From assembly GCA_034687125.1 (NCBI GenBank), contig JAQGBZ010000198.1, forward strand, positions 52,670 through 116,669: a stretch of 64,000 nucleotides of DNA, in the 5' to 3' direction. Made by a program: the position numbers and the translations under genes. Of this stretch, positions 8,997-40,000 are shown one piece after another (the stretch's first letter is position 1; every line of letters starts with the position of its first letter). The stretch comes from Neelides folsomi. Lineage: Eukaryota > Arthropoda > Collembola > Neelipleona > Neelidae. The notes below the pieces were generated by a model. The model was not told the origin of the DNA, did not search any database, and saw nothing but the letters and a program-made list of their open reading frames with translations.

Positions 8997-11616
8997 ACCC
9001 AATGTACAAAACATAATCCCCTATGATCTCGTTTCTCCAGCTTTCTATCATCATCAACTGACGTGCAAACTCGTATAACTTTGAGGCTGTCTTTGATCTC
9101 GATTAATTATTTAATACTCTCGTTTCACATTTCTCGCTTTTTAAACAATTATTTTTCATTAATACTTCCTTTTACGTTAATAAGCTTATTTAACTTTTGA
9201 ATCAAATCAGCTCGGCAACGGGCAACGGGTCAAACCTGAAAGTCTGTTCGTCTCAACCTTCTTCACTACCTCAATCTTGTCATTTCTTCATTTTTCTATT
9301 CTAATTTTTCATTGAACTATTTTGTATTAAAAATAATTAATTTTTTACATATGTGCGAAAGTAACCATTTTAATGCTTTATGTTGCGCTTTAAAAATATG
9401 CCAAAATATATTAATTTTCAAATTCGAAAAGCAATACAATTTAAGTTTATTCTCTATGATGCCTACAAATTTAAAGTACATATTAATCTATTTATAGTGA
9501 AATCTAACAGACTCGTAACAAAGTATTTATAGCTTTAATTTATATAATACTTATCGTGAGAAAACAGTTCAAGATGATGAGAAAGGACAGTTTTGAATTA
9601 AAATGAAAAGCAATAGCGTGCCCTTATGAAAATGAGTACAGGTATTAAAAAAAGTATTCAGGGACAAATATCAAGAAATTCGGGTATTATCGTAAGTAAT
9701 AATTAAAATAATAAGGAAAAATAGCCACCTAATACAAATTAATCCCTAGATGCTAACCAGATTTTACATAGAGGTAGATTTAATATAAATTGTATCTTTT
9801 TAGCTAAAAGTACATTTTTGTGTGAAAATACTCAGGAAGGCAGATAATGCGATTTCAAATTACTGCAATAGGGAAGGAGTGTTTATAAGCAAAATAATAA
9901 TCACAGAATAAATTAACAATAAATAACGATATAATATTTGAGAGAAATAATGTCTGTGTACATATATTTAGCTACTCTTATTAACTAAATGTATAATAGA
10001 TGAAGGAGTTTAATTTAAAATTTTAATAATACTCTAATATACACATTAGTACGTGCAATTAAGCACGCGTTCTTGATGATTAATGTGAAATAAACTTGGG
10101 TGAAAAATATAGGCAGTAGTTAATAAGGATAATATTGATGATCAAAAACTGATTATAAAAATAAAAGTAGTGAATTAACAAAAGCAATTTATAAAATTGC
10201 CAACCAAAAAAGCTTAGTCAGATAACAAGAAGAATATCAACGTCAAGGGGGATTTTACAATAATAACGAAAGAGATTTAATACGAAAATCATATTTAGTG
10301 TAAATGATATAAAAGGACTATCTATATACCTCTACCTCTAACCATCATTTCGAGTCCACCTTGTCATAAAATGAAATTATGAATCGGAAAAATAAATTTT
10401 GTGATTAATATAAAATCATAGCCTTAAGTATTTACAAGTTAATAAAAATTTCAAAATTAATCATCATGAATCAAAATTGTCCTAATTTAGTGGTTTTAAT
10501 GTTGTGTTTAAGTATGTTAAATTGTCCGTTGAATCACATTTTAAGTTTGTATTTAATTTAATAATGAAATTACTATACAAATCAGTATTGTTAATATTTA
10601 TATATTTACCATTGTGTACTATAATTTAATTATAATTTAACTTGCGTTTCTAATTATCTTGTTTTTGTAACTTTTCTAGTCTTCTTGACTTACTATTAAC
10701 GGTTAAGATTTACTAACTCCTAATTTAATCATTTTTGTTACCAATTTTTAACGCGGTGTTAAACTAATTGCTTCATTTCTGTTTTTTACTAAACATTGTG
10801 AGAATTATCAAATAGGTTTACAATAATGTTTAATAACAATCGTGTGCATTTACAAGATGAAAAATAATAATAACGACAGATCGAAAATATAAATTTTTGA
10901 AATGAAAGAAGAGTAATAGCCATAGGCAATAATATCTTGTAGTTTTCTAGTTTTCGACAGAGTAGGTACATATTATTATCTCAATGAGTCTTTAGTTCTA
11001 TAGAATTGGGCGATCGATCCGAAATTGACAAAACACTGATGGTTTTTTTATGGAATTGAAAATTGAAATTATGAAGGAATAAGAAATTATGTGAAGATAG
11101 ATCTATTTGTAACATCATAAAAAGTATATCTTGGGAAATGAATAATGAATAAAATACTTATTAGATGAAGTGGTAAAAATGAGATAGCAATGAGAAAACA
11201 TCACTGTTGACTTTGTATCAGTGAAGTAGACTTTAAATGAAGAATAGCCTCAGTGGTAAATGAAACGTACAAAGATAATCCATTGAGATAAAAAATAATA
11301 AAAAAACACTCATGATGTTTTGAGAAATTATGTATAAAGAAATTGTCTTTATAGCTAGACTCGAATAAAAATCAATAACAATATAATGTATTTTAGTAGA
11401 TGATGAATAAACCAATGTGTGTCAATGTTGAGATTTGAAAAATGAATTTTATTCACCATTGCATTTTTAATTTACTTGCACCAATATTAAATACTAACTA
11501 CGACATTTATATTCAAAAAGCCCTAGGACTTCGAACTCGTGTATTTACTAAATATAAATATAAATGCCAACATTTTGGATATCGTTCCATTCCACATCAT
11601 TTCATTTTGCTCTAAT
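8997..11616. other. AT-rich intergenic region downstream of the Abrupt-like gene
   Basis: About 2.6 kb of very AT-rich sequence, presumably including the 3' untranslated region of the Abrupt-like gene. Only short open frames under about 60 codons occur. No repeat, RNA gene or coding exon was recognised. Confidence 0.5.
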
Positions 11617-11849
11617 AAAAAGTTGGTAAAAGGTACGAATACGGGCGCAGCCAATATTGGTTACTTTAAATGTGTTTTCTTACTAAATCGATGATGTAGA
11701 TCACGAATCTGATACTTATTAGAAGTGCAAAATTATAATTACAAAATAAAGTTAATTATGGAATTTTAATTTTAAATGGAAAGTTTAAGGTTGTTTTACA
11801 GAATTTTCGCGCGCTTCAAATTGATTCGTTCTATTCTTTATCACTTTCG

Positions 11850-11866
11850 TTAGGTTAGGTTAGGTT
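11850..11866 (+). repeat. Short TTAGG telomere-type repeat inside the Merlin-like element
   Basis: Three consecutive TTAGG units (ttaggttaggttagg) are followed by tttggg. TTAGG is the ancestral arthropod telomere repeat. The tract is internal to a transposon and between ordinary genes, so it is an interstitial copy and not a chromosome end. It may be a chance or telomerase-patched insertion. Confidence 0.7.
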
Positions 11867-12004
11867 TGGGACGCCCAAACTCTCGTTCCACTAATCAAAA
11901 AGTGGATCTCACCTGGAACGACAATCTACTCGGACTGTTGGAAGGCCTACAACCCAATCCTCGAGAATCCTGACTTCAAAATGCTCCAAGTGAAGTATTG
12001 GTAA
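11864..12004 (+). pseudogene. ISXO2-like (Merlin) transposase fragment
   Basis: An open stretch of 46 codons with no start codon lies inside the miniature transposon, opening after a TAG at 11861 and closing at a TAA at 12002-12004. It encodes VWDAQTLVPLIKKWISPGTT followed by IYSDCWKAYNPILENPDFKM. The segment TLVPLIKKWISPGTTIYSDCWKAYN matches the ISXO2/IS1016 transposase domain around its second catalytic aspartate, the D of SDCW. The first aspartate, the expected downstream VNHS-type motif and the third catalytic residue are all missing, so this is a relic with no activity. Codon content is much less AT-biased than the surrounding inverted repeats. Confidence 0.82.
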
Positions 12005-12146
12005 TTGAAAATTTATATTTCTAAATATAATTTTGCACCTCTAATAAGTATCAGATTCGTGATCTACATCATCGATTTAGTAAGAAAACACATGTAAAGT
12101 AACCAATATTGGCTGCGCCCGTATTCGTAACTTTTTCCAAAAAGTT

Positions 12147-13624
12147 AAATGAATGATTGAAGTGTATGAAGACACGATGACAAGATACAAGGTATTACTG
12201 TTAGGGTATACTTATAAGGTATACTATAAGTATGACTGTTAAGATTTTATCGAAAATGTTGATTTTGTCACAATTCACTATTTAAAGCGAGATTGATTAA
12301 TTTCTCATTGAACATTGTCACTTTTTATCAAGGATATCGCCAGATAACTGCGTATTTTTCTTCCTATGAAAAAGAGAATATACCTATAGGATAAATACAT
12401 AGCAAACGGGCTGTACAAATACATAAGAATGGATAATTATGCAGTAATATTTAATTCCACATTAAAAGATAAACACTGTGTAAACTTTTTGTAATAATTA
12501 TGAAACTTCACCAATAGCCATGTTTTAATATAAACTATTTCTAGATTGACAATTGCACCATATTTTAATGGTTCCATATCGAATCGAGTACCATAAATTG
12601 GAGAAAAGCGCAAATGTAAGTTGCACACTTGAGAGTGTAATACTAATAAGGTTCAAACTCCCAACAATACAATGAGAATATTCCTCCATAAATTTAGATA
12701 TATGTATAGGAAAGTCATGAGAGTCTCATGACTTATGATGACTGAATAAGAGATAAGGGAATGGGAGTATGAAGAATGGATGAGAGGGAGCAATGAATCA
12801 TTTAATGTGATTCACCATCATTTTCCTTCAGAATCCTAGTCCTTCATTTTCATTTTCTCATAATGTTGAAGGGAATTGACGGCAGAAATCTCACGATGAA
12901 GGAAGGCGATTAGGGGATTAGACCAAAAACCAAGGAACATTGGAAGACATAGGAAAATTAATCCTCCCAAGGAAGAGCGGAGAGTTTGGGAGAAATGCCC
13001 GAATTATCTCTCCAATGCTGACAAGGGTAGAAGTCTCACGTTTCCCACCTTTGATGTTACTCTGAGGCCAACTCTGAGGCTCCTGATGAGGTGCGATGGG
13101 CGATGGGTGCACGATGCATTTTGTGGATCCTGCTTAGGGCTAGAAATGGAAAGTGGATGGATCTTCTCGTGAGGAATTTCCTCTGCAGAGACCTCTACGC
13201 ATTCGGTCTCAGCCTCCCTCCCTTTCACGAACACATTCTTGAGACTTCAATCCTTTCGCTCTAACAGTCCCAATCCCCCCACGGCATGGAGAAGGATAAA
13301 TAAACTCTCGTGTCCTCCCTCTCATTCCAACTAATCCAAAAGTAGATTTAGAATTTTAATTTACAACCCATCGCTTTTTGATTCTTCATTAGCCCACCTG
13401 GATCATAAGTGAAGTATTTTAATTACAGTATGAATTTCTAAAAGAAAGTTTCATCCATTTCACAATCACTTCTATTTAATTCCTTTTATGCATTTTTTAA
13501 TTCGAGAGTGCCAATACGAAACGAAAAAAGACGGAATATTTTTGGAACAAGGCCCTTCCATTCCTTGGACCAACCTTCGGGCGGTGGGAAGACTTTTTAA
13601 GGGAGCTTCAGGGAATTCCAATTT
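12147..13624. other. Intergenic region and probable 5' leader of Ajuba
   Basis: AT-rich sequence up to about 12,850, then less AT-rich sequence approaching the Ajuba ATG at 13625. Minus-strand open frames near 12918-13234 have no recognisable domain. The last few hundred bases probably carry the Ajuba promoter and 5' untranslated region, since an in-frame stop (13598-13600) sits 24 bp before the start codon. Confidence 0.45.
12208..12233. repeat. Small perfect hairpin
   Basis: A 9-bp perfect stem, atacttata and tataagtat, flanks an 8-base loop. It lies 60 bp beyond the Merlin-like element in AT-rich intergenic DNA. No function can be assigned; such stems are expected by chance at this base composition. 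Confidence 0.4.
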
Positions 13625-17671: not shown

Positions 17672-20600
17672 TTATTCGTCTTTTTCTAAGCCGTCATTTT
17701 CTTCTCCCTCCCTCTTCTTCGCTTCCTCTGGAGTTTCGAGGACAGCTGGAACATAGCGATATGCCAACCAAGAGAAAACGATCATATCGACAAACATGAG
17801 ACCGGCAAAGAGGAAGAACTCTTTCGACTGTATTTAAAGTTAATCATAAAATCAATTCCAAAGTCTATTGATCTTTTCCATTTGCTAATTTTGTTAGATC
17901 GATCACCTGTTCTTTGAAGAATTTCGCCTCCACAATGATGATGTCAATAATGTTACCAAATGCGACAGTTAGAAGCCAAGCCGATTGCATCACAGACTTC
18001 ATGCTTACTGGAGACTATTAGATAATATATTTTTAATAATTAACTACCATATTTAACTTTTATTGAATTTTAAGTTTAATTTAAGATATGTAATTATATT
18101 TCTTTACCTGCGAGTATGAAAATTCAAGACCGGTAATACTGAACATGATTTCTCCAAGGGTAATGACAATATATTGAGGAATAAGCCACATCATGTGAAT
18201 TGAATTTGGTTTAGTTATTTCGTAAATGTGGAAATTAAACGTAGCATTTTCATCAACATCAGCGTTTGTTCTTGATACAACTGCTACGTAGGAGCCACCA
18301 AGTCTCAATTCCTCTGATTTAAGTGTCTTTTTCTCTATTTTATCATTTACACCATATTCCATAATAAAGTCAAATCTAAATTATGTAAAAATAGAAATAT
18401 TAAAATGATTTTTGTAAAGTTGATAAGTAATTATGTATACCGTTTCATTTTAGAATTAAAACTTACTCTTTGGGTTGAACTTCTGTAGCATAGTGTTCTT
18501 CTTCTTCGCTTCCAAATTCTACTTCTTCACTGTCATCAGCTTTGTCAGCATCAATTCTGAAAATGGGGTTTTTAAATCCTTCAAAGGCGTTTTTGTCCCG
18601 ATAAACTCTGCACACGTAATTAGAATATTAAAAAATTAGTAAAAATCGAAATTTTAATTAAATGAAATGAAATTAATATTGGTTAAATGTTATTAATATA
18701 AACCTTATTTTTGGAAATCCTTCGCTAGATCTTTCCATTTCATCAGAAAGTTTATATTGATATACAGAATATAATTGAGTAGTATTCCAAGATTTTCCAA
18801 TGACAATTGTTGTGGCCTTTAAAGGTTGAATTTAAATTAGAGAGAGAATTAATTTGAATGTAAAGTACACAATATGAAGGACAGTTAATTGCAACATACA
18901 ACATTAAATTATATTTTAAGCCTATACACATTTTTTATATGTAGTAGTAATCAGAAACGTGTTTGAATATGATATTATATATTTTAAAGATTACATTTTC
19001 CTTAAATCCTTTAATCGTGGTAGAGTAAGTGCCATCAACACATTCATCATGATTTCCTGTTGTTGAAATGGTCAGGGGATAATTGTAATCTTTCTCAATA
19101 TATTTTGCCCTTTCTACCATTATAGATTCGAATTCTTTGATCTCAAGGTTAAAATCTTGATTGTCATACTTGTATTGAACCTTTGTCAAACAAGGTAAAT
19201 TGTTCACAAAGTGAAAGTTCGTTTCAGTTGACTCCAAAACAGTTGCATAAGTGGGCTAGATGAATACAAACAGAAAAAATCCTTAATATTTAAGTAGGTA
19301 TATGAAAAACTTTACCAAATTGTAATAGTAATAATTATAAATAAATAGAATACTTTAAGGTCTACGTAATGTATCAAATACAAATTAGAGCTAATTTTTC
19401 CACTTTGGATATAAATACCTCCAATTGAAGCTCAAGTATTCCAGAGATAATAAAAGAAATTCCAGCTAGAATTCCTCCAATAGTGAGTCTTTGAAGTGGT
19501 TTTTTCAGGATATTGCATTTGCCCAATAATGGATAAATTCCTTTTTCGAAGATAGGAATGAATATCAAAATAAGCAATGGGTTGATTACCTGTGGATTCA
19601 ATTAACAATAAAAGTTCAATTAACAATCAAATCATTATTCGCATTATTACATATTGATCATCATATTGATCTACGTTAAAGGAATTCTCTAAAATCCTAT
19701 AAACGATTATAAGACAATGAAATGTTTTATCACGCACTTGAACTTGATCAGGTTTAAAGGTGTATCCAAAAGTTTTTCCGTCCATGTTAATAGCCTGGAT
19801 GGTCCATCGAGATCCCTTTGATTAAAAATATTTTAATGTTGTGCTAGGCCAAGTTATACATTTAAGTACATCATGATTGGATATAACATTATTATTTCAA
19901 ATTAAATAAATTGGTATAAGTATTTCAGAAGTTTATAAGTAAAGATTTAGTATATAAATTGTATACTATGTAATAGATACAGATATATTGAATAAATATT
20001 ATACGTAGTAAAAATATAGTTATATTACTTGTTGGTCAAAGAGGGACCAGAAGAAAGGAAGAGGAATGTAAAGGACGAGAACTCTGAGAACAATCTTAAC
20101 ATCTTCAATGAACCTCCTATCGTACTCATCATCAGCGTGATCGAGAAAATGCTCTTTCTTCTCTTTCGACTTTCTCTTTCGGCTCATGGCATGCTGAGAG
20201 GATAAAAATCAATTAAGTCTTGAACCCAGACACTTTATGGTTCCCTTTTCACTTACTCCAATGCATTTGGCGACCTTGACCACCACATTTCCTGCCGGCT
20301 TCTTCACAATATAAAGCGGTCTTCCAATGAGGAAAACAACTACGGAATAAAAAGAAAAGTTATGAAACCCTTGATATTCATTCTAATTAATTGAAATCCA
20401 ACTTTTCCGGAAAAAGTTTGGCAAAAGTTTGTAAACCATTATGCCATTGAACAATGTGGTTCGTGTTCATGACAGTCCTTAAATTAATTCCTTCTTTATC
20501 TTTTGTATCTCGCGATCCCATCTTAAGATACTACTACATTGTACTGAAAAATTCTTACTGAGGGCGACGATCATCAGGGCGGCCGGGACGGAGAAAGCGA

Positions 20601-21758
20601 GCGAGTAACAAGTTCGCTCATCGAAACAAGAAATGTCGTTTCTAAAGATGGGCGTGAGAAACGTGGAGATGAGGGAGCCCGCGTTAATGGAGAAGTAGAA
20701 GATGGAAAAGAATTGCTTCAACGGGGTTTCCTGTTCCGGCAGCTTGAACTGATCTCCTCCAAACGCTGACACACATGGCTTGATTCCACCCGTGCCGATA
20801 GCGATGAGAGCCAGACCGATCATACTTATTGCCCTGTTTCCAATCCGAATTAAGAGAAGAGCCCATGAGCCAATTAAGTAATTCTGTGTAAGTGGAGAAA
20901 ATCGGCTTACGTTGCGGGAAAGTTGAGCGGCGGAGTGGCTGCCATTGAAAGGACCACATTTCCGATCGCGTAGACGACCGAGAGATAGAAGATCGTCCTG
21001 GGGCAAATGAAATGTGAGTTCTACACCCAACAACTTACGAATCTATTCTTCATGAAAGTTTGAGAAGTTGGGCGACTTTGGTGGGACACAAAAGCCTCCA
21101 GTTCGCTCTTTCATTCTTACTTGAATTTCCCGAGAAGGGAGTCAGCAATCATGGCACCCAGGAGTGGAGTAAAGTAACAAAAGGCAGTGAACAAATGGTA
21201 AATCGTCGTGGCGGAGTCATCGGAGAAGTTCAGGACGTTCCTCAAGTACAATGTAAGAACGGCTAAAAAGGGAAAGGCATTTTGAAAAGAATTTGCACAA
21301 CTTTGGGCTAAATTTTTTATACCTGCCAGCTTATTATTCTCATACGCGTTATTTTTTACAATGGACTACAAAATGAACCTCTTTCTTTCCATACTCAAAG
21401 TTCTTTTGTAATGTTATCAAATATTTCCTAATTTACATTTATGTTTTACTTTCCTTTTATGTTTCGTCAAAACATTCTCTTTATACTTATTTATGTATGT
21501 CGGTAATAATGTTAGGTCTGGATGAAACAACAAAGGATTTACGTACCTCGCATTCCGTAATAGGAAAACCGTTCGCAAAATTCCATAATGACGATGAAAA
21601 ATACGGATTTGGGATACGGGAGTTTCTGGAATTTCCAAAAGTTGGGTCATTTCAGTTAAAACAAAACTCAAGAGCTGGAACATTTGAAAATGAAAGGAAC
21701 TGTTGTTTCCTACCTTTCCCCCTGACTCCATGTCAGTTCGTCCTTTGGGCTCCTCCAT
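17672..21758 (-). CDS. SLC15/PepT proton-coupled oligopeptide transporter
   Basis: Plasma-membrane symporter of di- and tripeptides with protons (POT/PTR2 family, major facilitator superfamily). It has 723 residues in 15 minus-strand exons: 21714-21758, 21547-21625, 21121-21262, 20911-20997, 20559-20833, 20257-20339, 20029-20193, 19738-19815, 19419-19589, 18995-19255, 18704-18816, 18467-18607, 18108-18375, 17907-18014 and 17672-17827. All joins are GT-AG and in phase. The proton-coupling helix motif EFCERFSYYGMR lies at 30-41, giving E30, E33 and R34 of the ExxER motif. PTR2 signatures follow (AFCYFTPLLGAMIADSLLGK, IAIGTGGIKPCVSAFGGDQF, FSIFYFSINAGSLISTFLTP). Next come YIPLPFFWSLFDQQGSRWTI and QVINPLLILIFIPIFEKGIY. 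A long hydrophilic extracellular loop of roughly 250 residues, typical of animal PepT, precedes the last helices (GLEFSYSQSPVSMKSVMQSA). Length matches vertebrate PepT1/2. A 5' non-coding exon probably lies upstream, because an acceptor sits at 21770-21772, 11 bp before the ATG. Confidence 0.95.
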
Positions 21759-37004: not shown

Positions 37005-40000
37005 ATGTCAAGAAAAGGTTCTCCAGTTCTCCTCCTCGTCTTGGTGGCCGTTTCTCTCTGCACCCGTGTTGAATCCATAACGGTCGGGACAAAGTTGGGT
37101 AAAATTCTTGGGACGAGAGAGGAAATGGTGAGTGGGACAAAGTATTTGGCTTTCAGAGCCATTCGCTACGCATCGCCTCCAACCCGCTCTCAAAGATTCA
37201 AGGTATCTCACAACACGGACTTGGAGAAGAAAGACGGAGTTATGAATTTTTAATAAAATCTTCCTCGTTCAGCCTCCTGTGCCGGTGAGTCCATGGGAAG
37301 GAGTCATGAATGGAACTGAAGACGGCCCCGTCTGCCCGCAGCTCAACTTTGGAACCAATGCCGTAATCGGCGACGAAGACTGTCTCACTCTCAATGTCTA
37401 CACGAAAGATGTATGTAATAAATACCAATATCCTCGTCCTTACCTGTCTATAAAATATATGACATAAGCCTTTTACACCCAGTTTCCTATCCATTACTAA
37501 CTCGAGTATATTAAATTTCGACTATGTCCGGATTTCGAAGTTTAAAACCGCAATTTGAGCTTCATGATGACAAGTCGACAGGGAAAGGGTCGGTCTTTGG
37601 GCATATCCCTTTCTCCTATTTATTTAACTACATAGTTTCCTATGTATATTGCTCTCTTTAAATTCAATAATGCTTCATGTGTGGGGATTTCACTTTTGAC
37701 AGGTCGAGCATTTGAGGCCAGTCGTCGTATTTATACATGGAGGGGGCTGGTGAGTAAATATACACTGGGCTATGAAACGCCAAAATGATTGAAATACCAT
37801 TTGCATTACACATTCCGAAAGGATATTTTGTTCTGGTATGGCTGAAGATAATGCATAAAAAGGGTGTTTGAGGAGAACGTAATTTTTTTCTTTTTCCTCG
37901 ACAGGTCGACAGGCACGGGCTCAAGTCTTCTATACGGCCCGAATTTCCTGGTGGATAATTTTGTTCTCGTGACGATCCAGTACAGACTCTCAGTCTTGGG
38001 TAAAGAATGGCCGTGAATAAGTAATTACATGGCTAATGGAAATTTTATGCTGAATGTCATAGGATTCTTGAGCACTGGGACAGATGAGGCTCGGGGAAAC
38101 TACGGGCTTCTCGACCAACTCGTGTCTCTTGAATGGGTGAAGGAAAACATTGCGTCGTTCGGCGGAGACCCCGATCGTGTCACTTTGATGGGCGAAGGGG
38201 CTGGTGCTGCGAGTGTTGGTCTTCTCAGCTTCACTGAACGATCCAGAGGTTATACTTTTCCTTGTCCGATGGTTGTAGTCAGAACGATCCGAAAAAGCAA
38301 GGATAAAAATGTATAGGAAGGAGAATCTCGAGAGGGCCCTTTATTATTTTATTGCTCTCTACACTCTCTATGATTGAATGCGTCCCACTAAGGGAATCGA
38401 ATCGAATTCCGTCTCCTTTGACTTCAATGGAAAGGAAAAAAGTTTTTTTGGTGGAAACTCCAACTCTTTAGATTGCCTGAATTAAACCTTTGACTTTCAC
38501 TGACGGGGCTTTGTCGATAGAATTCGATAGCCGCAGACGATCCCCCATTCAATTTACACAGAAGCCCAGAAGACTAGGGCTAAAAAAGAATCGTTACCTT
38601 ATTTCTCCGATGATTAAACTCCCTATTATGCAATTTCCTCCTCTTCCTCTCGTCCCATTGAACATCTTTAGAGCTTCACATTTTAAATTGGAACATGGGG
38701 ATTTGGGGAGGCTGAGACAGAAAATCAAAATTTAAGAGGGGAAATTTAATCTTGGGCAAAAGAGTAAAATCCCCGTAGTTGGATTCGACATGTAATGGGG
38801 GATCGGAGAAATGAAGAGAGTTCGTGGCAATAAATGCATGTGATGTTCTTCCAGGATTGTTCCGGAACGGGATCCTTCTGGGCGGATCTCCATTGAATAG
38901 CCAATACTTTCAGAAGGATCCGCTGGAGTCAGCGAGAGAAATTGGGAGTCGACTTGGCTGCACTTACGACGACCTCGCCGGGCTCGTCTCCTGCTTAAGA
39001 GAAGCAGAAGCGGAGAAACTCATCCGAGAAGTTAATCAGATGTTTGTAAGTCACTTGATAGTAACGAGACTCTCTGAAGGAAATTGCCTCTGCGGTTCGG
39101 CCATAAAATTAAGAGGGAAGATGGCCAGAACCATGTCCATTAAACTTCCCTTCACTAAGGAGACTGTTCCCTTTTTTTCAGTCGTTTTTCTCATTCCCTC
39201 GATGGTTCGCACCCTCCGTCGACAATGTTTTATTCAGCGGGGACCCGGCCGAGATGCTCCGAGACGGAGGAAGATTGGTCAAAGTGCCGATTCTCATTGG
39301 GCTGGCGAGGCACGAGGGAGCCTTCTACTACCCGCGTATGACACATTTACAACTCTCCATATCTCCCATCGTTGGCCAGAATGACTTGCCATATCCTCCC
39401 GCTCGGGGAAGCATAATGAGCGGATATGAACTCTCATTATCCTGTCTATTCCTTATAAGTATAATAAGATTCCTCTTTGGAGCAAATGAGGTTCTTTGAA
39501 TAGAACCTTCACACCAGCCATTTGCCCAAAACCGAGTCAACAAAAGAGAACTTTCTTTCCTCGCCCTTTTCAAAAGGAGGAGTTATTGAGGAAACTTCGC
39601 GCCCGGGCCCTCTAATCGCTTCTCATCCCATTTGAATTTTGGGAAGCTATAAAAATGGGCCAATCAAATAAATTAATATGACGACGCTTCCCATTTCCCT
39701 CCCCGCCGAACCTAACGAGCCCATTTTCCGACCCTGGAGGGGAAGTGAATGGGGAAATGAGGGGGAGCCTCTTGATTTTTAATTGGCCTTTTAACTGGCC
39801 CTCTTCATGAGTGCGGAAGATAGGGGCAAGTACCATTGAAAATGTATTAGGGACCAATAAAAAAGTTATGAGGAGCTCCGCAGGAGCCATCCAGTTCAAG
39901 TAATCTCCCTTAGGCTCATTATAAGGGAAGAATGAATTGATTTATCATTTGGCAGTCACTCTCAACGCCTTCAATGATGGAGTCTACAAGGGGAACTTCA

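Follow-up and report, generated by a model that had tools for sequence, protein, structure and literature searches.

What kind of element occupies positions 11617-12146 of the window (the whole 64,000-nucleotide stretch analysed, from contig JAQGBZ010000198.1 of the collembolan Neelides folsomi), and why are its inverted repeats so long? An original prediction, made from the sequence letters, described a Merlin-type miniature transposon with an exact 8-bp target duplication and 113-bp inverted repeats differing at four sites without indels. Direct reading confirmed the former, AAAAAGTT standing on both sides of the element, and pairing of the arms confirmed the latter, the four differing sites over the 113 bp being arm positions 3, 9, 45 and 100, and indels being absent; a repeat finder followed the paired arms as far as 123 nt (95%). 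Features of the locus are collected in Table 1. Elsewhere the window holds two exon-like frames, one of a POT-family transporter (20482-21033, minus strand; PF00854, E 9e-36) and one of a carboxylesterase (38824-39381, plus strand; PF00135, E 4e-8).

Table 1. Coordinates (window numbering) of the element, its flanking duplications and its internal parts, with the basis for each assignment.
Feature	Position	Strand	Basis
Whole non-autonomous Merlin element, 514 bp	11625..12138	+	Same ends on C55 and C41, 96-97% identity
Left target site duplication, AAAAAGTT	11617..11624	+	Direct reading; equals right copy exactly
Right target site duplication, AAAAAGTT	12139..12146	+	Direct reading; equals left copy exactly
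Left terminal inverted repeat, 113 bp, tip GGTAAAAG	11625..11737	+	4 mismatches against right arm
Right terminal inverted repeat, 113 bp, tip GGAAAAAG	12026..12138	-	4 mismatches against left arm
Inner core of left arm, common to other Merlin families of the genome	11671..11741	+	Profile matches in protein-found loci
Inner core of right arm	12022..12092	-	Profile matches in protein-found loci
Left-arm stretch with right-arm bases (arm positions 81, 90, 91)	11705..11715	+	Comparison with arms of other copies
Piece collinear with 5' non-coding part of C617	11788..11826	+	90% over 39 bp
TTAGG repeats	11850..11867	+	TTAGG run of C617 in presumed intron, matching order
Transposase remnant with second catalytic Asp (IYSDCWKAY)	11868..11994	+	92% over 127 bp to C617; Pfam PF12762

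Element boundaries were sought with a scan for GG...CC ends that have similar tips and equal 8- or 9-mers immediately outside. Applied to 11001-12800, the scan returned a single solution, the window element; across 34 sources it solved eight, and 2 of 680 passed when the sources were shuffled. One further octamer, that of the coding relative C617 described below, was missed by the scan, spotted by eye and then checked directly.

The prediction had proposed a search of the source genome for other copies with the same ends and for a full-length relative with coding sequence, and both were found. Interrogation of 75,104,828 bases in 840 contigs (all copy counts are lower bounds) with 11617-12146 yielded at least 49 matches. 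Besides that of the window, near-identical long copies lie on C55 (96%), C41 (97%) and C542 (95%, right end missing); C14 is a fragment of the same family, and C30 is a 139-bp remnant, or micro-copy, that retains two tips and has no target duplication at its flanks. The copies on C55 and C41 are complete, the first between 8-bp duplications (CAAATTTT) and the second between 9-mers (GCAATTTCC), and the deletion form represented in the window is present in this genome as at least three complete copies and one truncated copy. Because the end pattern, at no more than three mismatches, recurs at 11 places on seven contigs (the window's included, against one place for a reversed control), and because two other complete copies carry different duplications, a chance origin of the window element's end pattern is excluded. 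The term "miniature transposon" holds in the sense of a short non-autonomous form and fails in the sense of an amplified one: very few copies were seen, and the term is therefore not to be read as denoting an amplified MITE family.

Recurrence of the same bounded unit at unrelated sites, with other duplications and a piece of transposase exon inside, bears directly on the notion that the locus is merely a long hairpin, produced by local inverted duplication without transposition and flanked by equal octamers through chance. Template switching can create long near-perfect arms, and at this locus the octamer is identical to right-tip bases 3-10, the right junction (12129-12146) reading AACTTTTT-CC-AAAAAGTT, a palindrome around CC; the copies on C55 and C41, having the same ends within other flanks, nonetheless refute a hairpin origin, to which we assign next to no probability. 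Choice of a target resembling the tip was also considered and set aside: the other duplications (CAAATTTT, GCAATTTCC, AAATTCAG, TGTAATGT, GAATTTAA, AATTTCCTG and AATACTCA) are unlike the right tip, as is the less certain GAAGTATAA. We take the agreement between the window's duplication and its right-tip bases as coincidence.

Empty sites were sought with the joined flanks of the window copy and of C617, two of the four copies concerned (C55 and C41 were left out). For the window copy no empty site was found in this genome, the two matches obtained being its own two flanks. The joined flanks of C617 gave three matches, namely its own two flanks and, on C513, a match at 70% running across the junction. 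The insertion is absent from C513, and C513 was rejected as an empty-site test, its junction alignment being too poor for counting the octamer. By eye, the flank of C617 resembles an exon of an Arf-type GTPase.

The coding relative C617 is an element of 1562 bp with the tips of the window family and an exact 8-bp duplication (AAATTCAG). It contains a 231-residue frame with a PF12762 domain (E 1.5e-15; 58 bits against a cut-off of 27) in which the three catalytic positions are D, D and E. The predicted ISXO2-type transposase segment around the second catalytic aspartate proved to be a remnant of such a protein: the interior fragment TLVPLIKKWISPGTTIYSDCWKAYNPILENPDFKMLQVKYW matches PF12762 (DDE_Tnp_IS1595) at E 2e-4 and 21.9 bits, below the family's 27-bit cut-off, and is 81% identical to the C617 transposase over 43 residues. 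No ORF of 80 residues or more overlaps the window element, which has stops in all three forward frames. When the interiors of the window and C41 copies were compared with C617, a 5' non-coding piece, the TTAGG run, the exon piece and the 3' end were found to be collinear, and about 50 bp (approximately element positions 120-170 in C41 numbering) gave no clear match; C617 itself is therefore not the parent. The family interior is likely the product of an internal deletion in a close relative of C617.

The search brought up a single full-length copy of the C617 type, apparently disrupted in its upstream coding part. It may be defective, because a 28-bp perfect tandem duplication (L029:1342-1400) lies inside the presumed N-terminal coding part and the frames resembling N-terminal exons, read by eye, contain stops. 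No Zn_Tnp_IS1595 match was found in its 103-residue upstream ORF, in a scan that covered part of the N-terminal exons.

These comparisons also bear on whether an element of another superfamily, of hAT or P type, has merely acquired Merlin sequence. Elements of both those types make 8-bp duplications too; the GG tips, the enclosure of a PF12762 transposase by the same tips on C617 and the presence of ends built in the same way at other Merlin loci argue against acquisition, which we judge exceedingly improbable. The predicted identity as a non-autonomous Merlin element is upheld by the duplication, the GG tips, the transposase remnant and C617, and we are highly confident that the locus is an internally deleted, non-autonomous member of a low-copy Merlin (IS1016/IS1595-like) family in a eucaryotic genome. 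On C742 the cytochrome oxidase I frame stays open over 524 codons under the invertebrate mitochondrial code, in keeping with an animal host.

The length of the arms was addressed by asking how widely such ends occur among Merlin loci chosen by their protein. A search of the genome with PF12762 gave 18 loci, all above the family cut-off, on which we ran an end profile built from six arms only, those of the window, C55 and C41. At E <= 1e-3 the profile made 13 matches of at least 18 bits in seven of the 18 loci (C617, C257, C481, C281, C143, C369 and C194), every one of them facing inward and adjoining the transposase. Matches were present in seven of the eight loci with at least 50% protein identity to C617; the eighth, C621, gave weak matches only (E 0.012 and 0.017), both in register with its duplication-bounded ends. 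C400, at 48% identity and short on one side, had no match, nor had any of the nine loci below 40%. In controls, 20 mononucleotide shuffles of the 18 loci produced nothing above 8.5 bits (E 1.3), and outside the element the window gave no match better than E 7.1. Since C617 is closely related to the profile seed and C257 was also reached by DNA similarity, the cleanest cases for shared ends are C143, C281, C369, C194 and C481. In C281, C143, C369 and C194 one arm each aligns from tip through core.

Several loci showed further variations on this plan. C406 (L047:306-2356) represents a different Merlin family, a 2051-bp element with a 9-bp duplication (AATTTCCTG) whose ends agree at 192 of 198 aligned bases, whose protein is 28% identical to that of C617 and which has no end-profile match. 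In C481 (L057:135-386) two same-facing end cores stand in tandem to the left of the transposase; the outer one may belong to a second element, the bounded element possibly starting only at 272. The short relatives C85, C62, C205 and C221 (L031, L032, L033 and L043) have a weak third core on one side (E 4e-4 to 1.4e-3), arms of C85 and C205 being in the seed of the profile concerned.

The sharing of ends can be set against the divergence of the coding sequences that they enclose. Among 35 element pairs (C448-C194 was left out, having too few shared codons), third codon positions were 31-42% identical in 33, the two close pairs C143-C281 and C369-C194 standing at 96-97%. Because ends are shared among loci despite such divergence, we read the long end as old and apparently constrained, a trait of the clade that the window family appears to have inherited from older relatives. 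Its long arms could instead be an accident of the family without function as an end, for example an internal duplication that copied part of one flank across. Departures from a full-length arm are compatible with an accident: the left arm of C617 is shorter than its right, the full 113 bp on the left not being needed everywhere; in C205 and C221 tip and core are closer together on one side; and in C281 and C143 the profile match of the second, right arm does not extend to the tip. An accident of one family would not readily account for profile matches at both ends of C143, C281, C257 and C481, whose proteins are only 58-65% identical to that of C617, nor for ends shared between distinct families at the third-position divergence just given, and we consider it unlikely.

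Conservation within the long end, read here as an old and constrained structure, is concentrated in its inner core. Over the first 52 core bases, compared without gaps, 13 of 15 arms were 60-87% identical to the window or C617 family, values reached in none of 300 matched shuffles for each arm (shuffled means 36-40%, highest 56%). An indel keeps the cores of C675 (0.46, reached by 12 of 300 shuffles) and C448 (0.44, by 40 of 300) from standing out. As the arms in these identity tests had been picked beforehand by the profile, which favours conservation, it is the profile search on protein-chosen loci that carries the argument. Gapped pairwise identity of the core was rejected as the main evidence of constraint, shuffled cores averaging 0.58, with 0.68 as their 95% point; 25 of 35 pair means exceeded 0.68, and ten fell in the shuffled range (0.62-0.68). 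In the outer 45 bp, two of 35 pair means exceeded the shuffled 95% point of 0.67, both from the close pairs, and the GG tips were kept.

The best-kept blocks of the core are GATCACGAATCTGA and TGCAAAATTA. Selection on a putative binding site is the natural reading of this conservation, and predicted transposase binding sites probably lie inside the tip, within the long end. In several relatives a GC-rich palindrome lies in the spacer that separates tip from core (L033:824-848, L031:1225-1249, L029:1062-1074), for example GGTTGGCGGGCGCAACCCGCCAACC.

The two arms of the window element record a further process. At arm positions 81, 90 and 91 the left arms of C55, C41, C542 and C30 (long arm) read A/G/G and that of C617 reads G/G/A, and the right arms of the window, C55, C41 and C617 all read G/A/C. 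The left arm of the window also reads G/A/C, the right-arm type. From this pattern the left arm looks to have been converted from the right, which is the best explanation; position 81 alone could be ancestral, and positions 90-91 suggest a right-arm source. Mismatches between the arms of one copy number six in C55, six in C41 and four in the window. Among the four long copies (window, C55, C41 and C542), 4 of the 286 gap-free interior columns are variable, compared with 18 of 179 in the arms, a count to which the three conversion sites contribute (Fisher p 4e-5 on the assumption that columns are independent). Exchange with the arms of other copies is one possibility for the higher variation of the arms.

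Similarity of the arms had been taken to indicate a fairly recent amplification, and on this point the prediction does not stand. The arms of DNA transposons, unlike LTRs, are not made identical at insertion; for this reason, and because of the conversion-like left arm of the window, the similarity of arms within a copy is no clock. A fairly recent spread of the window family is nevertheless plausible from the low variation of its interiors.

The locus has the structure of an insertion, with duplications, copies, a coding relative and shared arms, and cut-and-paste movement by a Merlin transposase acting in trans very likely produced it. Supplied in trans, the transposase would most likely cut at the GG tips and move the element, and insertion at an AT-rich site with an 8-bp stagger would place AAAAAGTT on both sides. 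Aborted repair of an excision gap may have left, between the arms, collinear remains of a full-length element of the C617 type. The long arms would be inherited from an older Merlin clade, with an inner core that is plausibly a predicted binding site of the transposase, by which it would probably be bound; conversion between arms plausibly keeps the ends alike. We give about even weight to a more specific model in which the long end would serve one Merlin clade as a compound recognition unit, comprising a conserved GG cutting tip, a fast-changing spacer and an inner core of approximately 60-70 bp, with the blocks GATCACGAATCTGA and TGCAAAATTA, that selection maintains as a predicted transposase binding site, the arms of a copy being matched by conversion.

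Taken alone, the window element is one more low-copy Merlin family, and its value is comparative. Families that share the inner core at the third-position divergence described offer a natural footprint of possible recognition by Merlin transposase, of which we found no earlier report in the portions of the open-licence literature searched.

Several known systems resemble the window family in part. Like MITEs, the window element is short and non-coding, has inverted ends and was probably moved in trans. MITEs usually number hundreds of copies or more; in contrast to such high copy numbers of a uniform deletion form, the window element has at least three complete copies. Tc1/Sleeping Beauty elements have ends of the IR/DR type, in which the arms are long and a conserved block lies inward of the tip. 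The long arms and inner block of the Merlin loci are alike in this, as is the weak extra core of C85, C62, C205 and C221; the transposase is of a different superfamily, and in the window family no extra core was seen. Bacterial IS1016/IS1595 members have shorter ends than the window family, which is eucaryotic and has a transposase gene that is probably split by introns. Those bacterial elements share with the window family and C617 both the DDE_Tnp_IS1595 domain, common to Merlin and IS1016, and the size of the duplication, as described in PMC8101967.

The closest likeness is to the Merlin superfamily itself, for which PMC8101967 gives terminal GG, duplications of 8 or 9 bp and, citing Feschotte 2004, ends spanning 24-462 bp. 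The GG tips (GGTAAAAG / GGAAAAAG) are shared by the window, C55, C41 and C617, whose duplications measure 8, 8, 9 and 8 bp, respectively, and the coding relative C617 has both the DDE_Tnp_IS1595 domain and the D-D-E residues. The long, imperfect ends belong to this likeness as well: 113-bp repeats had been considered unusual for Merlin, an impression removed by the range given in that source and by the same end build on related Merlin loci. Non-autonomous and very low in copy, the window family showed no defining difference from the superfamily, and five Merlin-defining features were found in the family or in C617.
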